A stretch of DNA of 44,158 nucleotides, from NCBI RefSeq assembly GCF_018918095.1, contig NZ_JAHLPV010000024.1:1-44158 (forward strand), written 5' to 3'. The notes beneath the pieces are model-generated. The model had not been told where the DNA came from and did not search any database. It saw only the letters and a program-made list of their open reading frames with translations. The stretch's first letter is position 1, and every line of letters starts with the position of its first letter. The stretch is from Acetivibrio sp. MSJd-27. Its GTDB lineage: Bacteria; Bacillota; Clostridia; UMGS1840; HGM11507. Made by a program: the position numbers and the translations under genes. Below, in pieces: positions 3,002 to 39,835 of the stretch.

Positions 3002-3138
3002 AACAACGCCTCCTTCCGAAATAGTATGGACGAAATCAAAAGAAATATAACCTTGTTAAGATTTAAGCAGCTGGGCTTCTTCTTTCCAGCATATGACAAA
3101 TAAATATCCTCCTTGCGGCGAGGCCGCTTTTTCACAAT

Positions 3139-3241
3139 GAAAAACTTTTTTACAACATAGAAAATTGCGCGGAATCGTGCGCAATTGCATGTTTCAAAAA
3201 ACAGCGTGCGAAGCGCGTCTGTGCTTTTCGAAAAACTTTTT
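3139..3241 (+). repeat. dispersed intergenic repeat, family 1, copy 1
   Basis: About 100 bases that recur in reverse orientation at 36084-36187. A core of 53 bases (3162-3214) is identical in the two copies, and identity stays high on both sides. The repeat can fold into two hairpins: AATTGCGC/GCGCAATT, and an imperfect one around CAGCGTGCGAAGCGCG. Copy 1 is bounded by GAAAAACTTTTT at both ends. It lies between the AI-2E gene and the elaA terminator. No coding potential was seen. Confidence 0.85.
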
Positions 3242-3318
3242 ATTTTATGATAGATGGAACTTTTTCTGTTGAAACACGGTCTAATGATACTGAAACATTA
3301 AAATAACACACAATCACA

Positions 3319-3836: not shown

Positions 3837-4020
3837 AAAGCATTGGAGAGTTAAACCCCATATGCTTAAAGATTTCTTTTCATCATTGTAGCATATAAAA
3901 TGTGATTCGCCAAGTATCCGCATAGAATTGCTTTCCACAGGCAAACTTTCCGCAGTTCTGCGGCAAAATGCCATACAATTGGGTGATAATCCGTCCAGAT
4001 TATCTGTGCTTTTTCCTTGC
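3837..4020 (+). repeat. dispersed repeat, family 2, partial copy
   Basis: 3837-3867 matches the terminal repeat of the element at 28211-28488, in the form AAAGCATTGGAGAGTT then CCCCATATGC. 3930-4020 matches that element's left body (TTTCCACAGGCAAA, CAAAATGC, TTATCTG then GCTTTTTCCTTG). About 60 unmatched bases lie between the two blocks. The right half of the element is missing. The repeat ends at the -35 box of the rlmN promoter. Confidence 0.7.
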
Positions 4021-10348: not shown

Positions 10349-10563
10349 GCTGTTCCGGAGAAATGCAATCTCCCGCTGAATCTTTGCATAACAGGACAAA
10401 ATTCCTGTGAAAAATATTTTCCATAGCCGATGGATGCCGCAGAATGTCTTTTTACCGCAGCTTAACGGGCATACACTGCCGCTCAAAATAAAATTTATTT
10501 CAGAGAGTATTTCTTTCAAAAAGGCAGATACTATTTTCAGATTCAAAAAAGGAGAGAGAAAAA

Positions 10564-28214: not shown

Positions 28215-28488
28215 GCATTAGAGAGTCGAACACAATATGGTTTCCACAGGCAAATTTTCCGCAATCCCGCGTCAAAATGCTTGTCAATCCGTCAGGATTA
28301 TCTGCGCTTTTTCCTTGTTTTACGAAAAAATTTGCTCTGTGGAAACTCTGCGACCCTGCACATAGGAAAATTTTCGTTTTTTGGTGTGTAAGGGTGCAGC
28401 AAGGCTGACGCCTTGCAAGACCGACAATCCGAAAAGGCGGAAATTTAACAAGTGCAGGGCATATGGGGTCCAACTCCCTAATGCTTAA
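28211..28488 (+). mobile_element. MITE-like element with terminal inverted repeats (repeat family 2, full copy)
   Basis: About 278 non-coding bases. The ends, 28211-28240 (TTAAGCATTAGAGAGT then GAACACAATATGG) and 28461-28488, are inverted repeats of about 30 bases with some 80% identity. Inside, GTTTCCACAGGCAAATTTT (from 28239) pairs with a complement near 28322-28345, and GCAAGGC/GCCTTGC forms a hairpin at 28399-28416. A partial copy lies at 3837-4020. No transposase is in the window. No clear target duplication was found. Confidence 0.7.
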
Positions 28489-36083: not shown

Positions 36084-36187
36084 ATAAAAAAGTTTTCATT
36101 CCGAAAAACGCAGCCGTGCTTCGCACGCTGTTTTTTGAAACATGCAATTGCGCACGATTCCGCGCAATTTCCTATGTTATAAAAAAA
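36084..36187 (-). repeat. dispersed intergenic repeat, family 1, copy 2 (inverted)
   Basis: Reverse-complement copy of 3139-3241, with the 53-base core unchanged and a few differences at each side. The same two hairpins are possible. It abuts the metA terminator, so its A tract may serve that terminator. Confidence 0.85.
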
Positions 36188-36223
36188 GAGTTCCAGGCGA
36201 TTATAAAATGCCTGGAACTCTTT
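36185..36223 (-). terminator. terminator of metA
   Basis: AGAGTTCCAGGC (36187-36198) pairs perfectly with GCCTGGAACTCT (36210-36221). On the minus strand the hairpin ends in at least seven T residues, supplied at the repeat border. Confidence 0.9.
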
Positions 36224-36253: not shown

Positions 36254-37171
36254 TTACTTAATTTTGGTCACATCATAAGGTGTTGTCTGGTAAACATAAT
36301 AATTCAGCCAATTGGAGTACAGCAGACTGGCATGCGCGCGCCAGGTGACTACCGGCTTGTTTTTGGGGTTGTCGCCGGGATAATAGTTGACAGGAACGGC
36401 AATCTTCAGTCCTTTTTGGACGTCTCTTTCATATTCCAGTGCCAGTGTATTCGCATCGTATTCCGAATGACCTGTCACAAAGATTTGCCGTCCGTCCTTG
36501 GAAGCGGCTATATAAACGCCGGCCTCCTTGGAATAAGCCAAAATTTCAAGTTTTTTTATTTTTTTGATATCTTCTGTGCGCACTTCCGAGTGACGGGAAT
36601 GGGGTGCATAGAAATAATCGTTAAAGCCTCTCATCAGCTTGGAGGTAGGTTTGTTGACCTTGTGGGAGAAAATGCCGAACATCTTCTCTGGAAGCGGATA
36701 CTTTGGAATACCATAATGGTAATACAGCCCTGCCTGGGCTCCCCAGCAAATATGGAAAGTGGAGTAGACATGCGTCTTGGACCATTCCATGATTTCACAG
36801 ATTTCATCCCAGTAATCCACCTCTTCATATTCGAGATTTTCGACCGGTGCACCAGTGATAATCAAACCATCAAATTTTTGTTCCCTGAATGCGTCAAAGG
36901 TTTCATAAAAATTGACCAGATGTTCATGCGGGGTGTTTTTTGAGGTGTAGGACTTGGTGGTCATAAAGTGAACCTCTACCTGCAAAGGAGTATTGCCCAG
37001 AAGACGCAGAATTTGCGTTTCCGTGACGATTTTTGTCGGCATCAGGTTGAGCAGTATAATGCGAAGCGGACGGATATCCTGCTTGGCAGCTTTCTTATCC
37101 GTCATGACAAATATATTTTCGGATTCCAGCGTTTTTTTGGCCGGAAGTTCATTGGGTATCTTAATTGGCAT
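36254..37171 (-). CDS. metAA: homoserine O-acetyltransferase (MetA family)
   Basis: A 305-residue enzyme that acylates homoserine, the first committed step of methionine synthesis. With the ATG at 37171 the catalytic cysteine is Cys142 (HICWGAQAG), the usual number. Residue 111 is Glu (GAPVE): family studies link Glu111 to acetyl-CoA and Gly111 (as in E. coli) to succinyl-CoA, so acetyl transfer is predicted. The HSEYD and PHSRHSEV motifs carry the His and Glu of the active site. No SAM riboswitch is visible in the short leader; a weak promoter lies at 37248-37275. Confidence 0.95.
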
Positions 37172-37247
37172 ACTTATCACTCTCTCGTTATTCTTATTTT
37201 TTTATTTTATCAAAATTCGGAGTATTAATCAATCATAATCACACAAA

Positions 37248-39584: not shown

Positions 39585-39733
39585 TGAGAGCTGCCGTTCT
39601 GGCAGCTCTCAGTCTGTCGAAAAACTCGGTCTACCGCAAGGGATAACAGAGAAAAGATAAAAAGAAACAGATTGCATGCATTTCACTATGCAAAATGCCA
39701 ATGGCTCCATCGAGAAACCATTGGCATTGCTTG
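39585..39733 (+). terminator. hairpin and terminator region after the HtrA gene
   Basis: TGAGAGCTGCC (39585-39595) pairs with GGCAGCTCTCA (39601-39611) but has no T tract. AATGCCAATGG (39694-39704) pairs with CCATTGGCATT (39718-39728), followed by GCTTGTTTTT, and is the likely true terminator. Confidence 0.7.
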
Positions 39734-39835
39734 TTTTTCGCAGCCTGCTCTTTTTCTCAATATAGAAAGTTGTGTGAATTTCTCTGACACAGAATTTTTT
39801 GTGAAATGTCGTAAAATCTTCTCTGAAGGGAAAGC

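Follow-up and report, generated by a model that had tools for sequence, protein, structure and literature searches.

The window analysed here, a stretch of 44,158 nt from the genome of Acetivibrio sp. MSJd-27 (contig C24), contains two copies of a short repeat in opposite orientation. Copy 1 is flanked by an AI-2E transporter gene on one side and a GNAT acetyltransferase gene on the other, in agreement with its placement between the AI-2E gene and elaA by an initial annotation of the sequence. Copy 2 adjoins the 3' side of the metA terminator hairpin (36220-36188), a contact that had likewise been recorded. The two inverted copies of about 100 bases are real: the arms 3146-3233 and 36099-36186 are 92% complementary, and the longest ungapped inverted pair measures 88 nt. 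The postulated 53-base invariant core has exactly this length, 3162-3214 (+) being identical to 36118-36170 (-). Its folding into two hairpins stood with regard to the hairpins but not to their number, as we found three (H1, H2 and H3). The refined features are:

3114..3152, + strand: right-end remnant of an upstream tandem copy, 39 bases, from local alignment to the consensus
3154..3243, + strand: copy 1 of the element, 90 nt, slightly degenerate, right end TTTTTAT, refined borders
3162..3214, + strand: 53-base core of copy 1, identical to the core of copy 2
3163..3186, + strand: H1, left-end hairpin AATTGCGC...GCGCAATT, from the fold and compensatory changes
3202..3221, + strand: H2, middle hairpin CAGCGTGCGAAGCGCGTCTG, from the fold
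3223..3243, + strand: H3 and T-tract, right-end hairpin GCTTTTC/GAAAAAC, then TTTTTAT
36084..36178, - strand: copy 2 of the element, 95 nt, near consensus, refined borders
36118..36170, - strand: 53-base core of copy 2, identical to the core of copy 1
36181..36187, - strand: T-tract of the metA terminator (TTTTTTT, then AT), landing site of copy 2
36188..36220, - strand: metA terminator hairpin GAGTTCCAGGC...GCCTGGAACTC, -23.2 kcal/mol
36254..37180, - strand: homoserine O-succinyltransferase gene (metA, Pfam HTS), upstream of copy 2

The start originally assigned to copy 1 falls inside the remnant 3114-3152. The remnant derives from an older tandem copy, of which it is the right end, and copy 1 used its hairpin and T-tract as landing site. 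Two more dispersed direct repeats, D2 and D3, are present in the window (3929-4019 and 28238-28317; 81-86% identical).

Copies were then counted across the whole host genome (3.05 Mb, 104 contigs), as the initial annotation had proposed. BLAST alone detected 44 places. A covariance model (R1) built from 32 copies gave 89 matches at E < 0.01, one of which is an opposite-strand shadow, leaving about 88 places rather than merely two; a chance repeat is thereby ruled out. R1 scores form a graded series from 135 down to about 34 bits, and the family thus comprises both young copies and old ones. Seven pairs lie in direct tandem, with a period of 96-97 bp where both members are intact.

The element is non-coding, measures about 96 bp and runs AACATAGG...CTTTTTTAT. 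From left to right it consists of AACATAGG, the left hairpin H1, an A-tract, H2, the right hairpin H3 and CTTTTTTAT; the aligned copies give the full unit as AACATAGGAAATTGCGCGGAATCGTGCGCAATTGCATGTTTCAAAAAACAGCGTGCGAAGCGCGGCTGCGTTTTTCGGAATGAAAAACTTTTTTAT. Upstream lies a T-tract followed by AT, the last base of the tract being T in 72% and C in 22% of cases and G or A in the rest. At the right border conservation stops at T6AT, while the left T-tract varies by site. Terminal inverted repeats are lacking, that is, AACATAGG and CTTTTTTAT are not inverted copies of each other and H1 and H3 are subterminal. Both strands of the element carry terminator-like hairpins. With a length of 90-116 nt it is too short for a transposase, and none of the approximately 88 host copies and more than 80 foreign copies is a long autonomous version.

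Landing sites consist of a hairpin, a T-tract and AT, in most cases an intrinsic terminator, with the element directly 3' of it. Scoring hairpins of -10 kcal/mol or lower that end just before the junction, we found one upstream of 65% of the non-tandem host copies (n=40), against 12% at positions 100 nt further upstream and 20% and 28% in the right flank on either strand. Other TTTTNAT sites in the window served as a further control and had a hairpin in 14% of cases. Foreign copies gave 71% (n=62), versus 19% and 14% in the controls. About one third of the copies are without a strong upstream hairpin. Orientation is constant, the terminator stem always lying left of the element's left end. The element also lands behind its own right end, which results in the direct tandem arrays, and the copy at L307 sits behind a hairpin and T-tract inside the right end of an IS200-like element. 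Given this last site, the target rule seems to be a hairpin plus T-tract rather than termination per se. Targeting of terminator-type sites by the element is, in our judgement, almost certain; the initial annotation had noted the contact between copy 2 and the metA terminator but missed the general rule.

Empty and filled versions of the same site were available in four comparisons. A terminator that is repeated within the host genome is empty in L129, L130 and L133-L136 (GGCATTTTTCATAGTAGAATTC and similar) and filled in L131, L132 and L128, the last of which has lost the left end of the element but retains an intact right junction (CTTTTTTATAATGGAATTC). Two further comparisons involve orthologous places in a pair of congeners: in genome G130 the element lies behind a terminator on contig C97, while G250 is without it at the corresponding place, and G130 C82 is filled where G250 C26 has its own terminator only. 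The G250 counterpart of the C97 site holds TTACATAGGA, the first bases of the left end in that genus, which possibly reflects a past loss there. Finally, the right end of an IS200-like element is empty in L304 and filled in L307. None of the four comparisons revealed a duplication beyond the ambiguous AT, which stands on both sides of the junction and is compatible with a two-base duplication. Full target duplication was rejected because left and right T-tracts do not co-vary, and a terminal TA duplication as in IS630-type MITEs because the base before AT can be T, C, G or A. A classical MITE of a DDE transposon was dismissed as well, since terminal inverted repeats and target duplication are both lacking. 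The copy number of about 88, the tandem arrays, the empty sites and the presence or absence between sister species bear out the reading as a mobile unit, and we regard the mobility of the element as established beyond reasonable doubt.

The repeated terminator (ten copies, L127-L136, including window 39692-39741) serves as target for an IS200-like element as well as for the present one, and most of its copies keep the downstream sequence GGTAGACCGAG...GACAGTCTG. A second dispersed family inserts at TATAA without duplication (CTGCGGGCAAGATGTCCCCCGCC...GGGGCAAGCCCTTATTGAA; L147 1501-1640, corresponding to G000 C51:7612-7740, and about 40 other host places). Its insertions interrupt the present element at the right end and at one tandem junction, and the window repeats at 10353, 13320, 29220 and 42973 may be related to it.

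Relatives of the element occur in other genomes. The exact left-end pattern was found at 62 loci, spread over some twenty records of Clostridia that comprise Oscillospiraceae and 'Clostridia bacterium' MAGs, Lachnospiraceae V9D3004 and a Blautia isolate. It gave no match in viral contigs. A left-end model was positive in 17 of 391 Clostridia genomes, distributed over seven families, and revealed no relative in three sampled genomes of the host's own family. This patchy distribution fits loss or horizontal transfer. Only two copies and no spread in relatives, the outcome that the initial annotation had set against its own reading, is not what the 88 or so copies and 17 positive genomes show. 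Elements of other lineages have different middles (often CCCCCAAGATTGGGGG...GGGGGTTGA) and different right hairpins, but in nearly all of them the end is a hairpin with CTTTTTTAT, or a sequence close to it, behind. G305 has longer forms, of about 160 nt, which are still too short to encode a transposase; these (L344, L345 and L343) carry an extra module, GCAAGCGGTTACCGCCGACCGAAGCAAAACTGAGAC, between the two G-runs. L199/L260 holds a threefold 313-bp tandem repeat (at 134, 447 and 760) with a hairpin plus T-tract and the element in every unit, and with a tRNA gene detected in the first.

Folded as single-stranded DNA, the element formed H1, H2 and H3 and was more stable than shuffled sequences (z -3.0 to -7.3); the upstream T-tract was able to pair with the internal A-tract. 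The initial annotation had suggested looking for compensatory changes in the stems, and these were found in two places. H1 displays double compensatory changes across lineages. In addition, the trinucleotide that follows the A-tract is complementary to the one preceding the right T-tract in 40 of the 54 foreign elements (mean 16.5 and maximum 26 in 5,000 shuffles). Relatedness among the sequences inflates such a count, yet several pair types recur (GCG/CGC, GTG/CAC, GTT/AAC and GAT/ATC). Judged by the sequences compared, the left hairpin and the pairing between A-tract and right end are thus shown to be maintained by compensatory changes. The latter bases can alternatively pair with the local right hairpin, a switch that a guide pairing with a cleavage site would presumably call for. 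Rfam contained no credible match for the element at gathering or relaxed thresholds; a Termite-leu match (E 0.13) was discarded, as it overlaps a host terminator and reaches half the gathering score.

IS200/IS605 transposition is characterized by insertion 3' of a short motif without duplication, by subterminal hairpins and by a lack of inverted repeats (PMC7290912, PMC8612924), and the same traits are on record for the transposase-free PATEs (PMC3119063). Since the present element inserts 3' of a motif, creates no duplication, has subterminal hairpins and lacks inverted repeats, a Y1 enzyme is a candidate for its mobilization. With modest confidence we favour a transposase-free element of the PATE type (palindrome-associated transposable element) that would be moved as single-stranded DNA by a Y1 enzyme acting in trans, with terminators mimicking its right end. 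A Y1 (HUH) transposase of the IS200/IS605 type would excise and paste the element and would recognize its right end by a hairpin with TTTTTTAT behind it. In single-stranded DNA, a terminator would imitate this right end and be taken as the target. As each insertion brings its own hairpin and T-tract, termination would be kept and a new landing site made. Mimicry of the right end would explain target, orientation, tandem arrays and host tolerance alike. The parts of this reading differ in strength: for Y1 as the mobilizing enzyme the balance is even, right-end mimicry as the target rule is put forward tentatively, and it is somewhat doubtful that the enzyme reads 'hairpin then TTTTTTAT', such that terminators genome-wide would be counterfeit right ends and every insertion would add a fresh landing site.

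Several observations bear on the enzyme. All five IS200-like left ends of the host genome lie in hairpin plus T-tract sites, and an IS200-like element in G194 sits behind TTTTTAT and appears to end in TTTTTAT, like the present elements. A Y1 gene was detected in 10 of 10 well-assembled element-bearing genomes versus 199 of 309 class-wide, which is weakly significant given a base rate of 64%; three incomplete element-bearing genomes yielded no Y1. Y1 subtypes differ among host genomes, none being common to all, and the Y1 matches of G190 and G305 are RAYT-like only. A Y1-encoding element with matching ends was not found in the genomes examined; draft assemblies break at such elements. The five host left ends belong to two types (L051-L055: C16 end, C30:29413, C66 start, C7 end and C42 end), and each runs into or near a contig end.

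An element of the same anatomy and target rule could also be moved by another agent, for instance a transposase of the DEDD/IS110-like or DDE kind that targets the two bases AT, or along an RNA-based route. The AT on both flanks would suit such an enzyme, no Y1 element shares the ends of the present one, and G320 harbours about ten near-identical copies with a degenerate Y1 match only. However, an autonomous partner of any kind was not found, the geometry follows the Y1 pattern (no long duplication, no terminal inverted repeats, subterminal hairpins, insertion 3' of a motif) and the IS200-like elements of the host genome occupy the same type of site. We consider a non-Y1 mover possible, though on the improbable side. 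Amplification as a strict REP/REPIN family by a host RAYT-like transposase is very improbable. The search for such a transposase, which the initial annotation had recommended, did reveal two RAYT-like genes (C7:23308 and C7:79334; NCBIfam REP_Tyr_transpos 65 bits, cut-off 80), and the repeats are short, intergenic and hairpin-forming. But the hairpin foot is ACATAGGAAA instead of GTAG/GTGG, tandems are direct instead of inverted pairs, and neither gene is flanked by element copies: the nearest clear ones (C7:15209 and C7:75963) are at least 3 kb away from the RAYT genes, which bear repeats of their own. 'REP-like' in the strict sense was hence abandoned. The RAYT genes' repeats are of the GTAGGGGCG type and occur inside and around the coding sequences (C7:23308-23691 and C7:79334-79561; L056 and L057).

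A structured RNA or bidirectional terminator cassette that is useful to the host and kept at gene ends by selection, with spread being secondary, would account for the compensatory changes, the terminator-like hairpins on both strands and the position, always at transcript ends. Structural constraint is, however, equally expected of transposon ends, and the host terminators upstream are already complete. Copies decay in a graded manner (135 to about 34 bits), the distribution is patchy and the element is absent from orthologous terminators of a sister species; no Rfam family matches, and a promoter-like site was absent by copy 1 and at chance level by copy 2. We judge this explanation very unlikely. 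A group II intron was rejected given the length of about 96 nt, the lack of coding sequence and of an Rfam match.

Few mobile DNAs exploit transcription terminators as safe harbours; the element is an addition to these few and one of the smallest. Near-identical copies occur in several Clostridia genomes from animal guts, forming a patchy family. Its insertions change how many transcripts end at the 3' side and can mislead the annotation of terminators and small RNAs. Compensatory changes together with natural empty sites make it a testable case for structure-guided insertion.

A description of the present family was not found in the open-access literature searched, which held background on PATEs, Y1 enzymes and class C introns only. 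PATEs are known from Haloquadratum walsbyi, with a PATE-like element in Halanaerobium, and their presumed movers are IS200/IS605-type enzymes acting in trans (PMC3119063, PMC7290912). Like them, the present element has near-terminal palindromes, no terminal inverted repeats and no target duplication (with the AT ambiguity), and is too short for a transposase. In contrast to PATEs, it targets hairpin plus T-tract sites, in Clostridia, and builds up direct tandems behind its own right end, and a search for a parent IS200/IS605 element sharing its ends found none. It thus fits the PATE definition, the link to a parent element excepted. With IS200/IS605 elements (IS608, ISDra2) it shares insertion 3' of a motif without duplication, hairpins at both ends and a right end that carries the T-rich motif of the target, and IS200-like copies of the host likewise lie behind terminators; unlike them it measures about 96 bp, encodes neither tnpA nor tnpB and has ends that are not similar to those of the resident IS200-like elements. 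REP/REPIN sequences with RAYT are comparably short, dispersed, intergenic, hairpin-forming and non-autonomous, but the GTAG/GTGG foot, inverted doublets and adjacency to a RAYT gene are features the present element does not have. Group IIC (bacterial class C) introns are specific in inserting downstream of Rho-independent terminators (PMC3522654, citing Robart et al. 2007). The present element resembles them in its insertion behind intrinsic terminators and differs in being a 96-nt unit without intron domains, reverse transcriptase or Rfam group II intron match. What is new here is the rule by which terminators are targeted, how large and widespread the family is, and the structural constraint across species. 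Mimicry, if true, would mean that a minimal element has its targets chosen by structure and not by sequence, and that it has reached the niche of group IIC introns independently.
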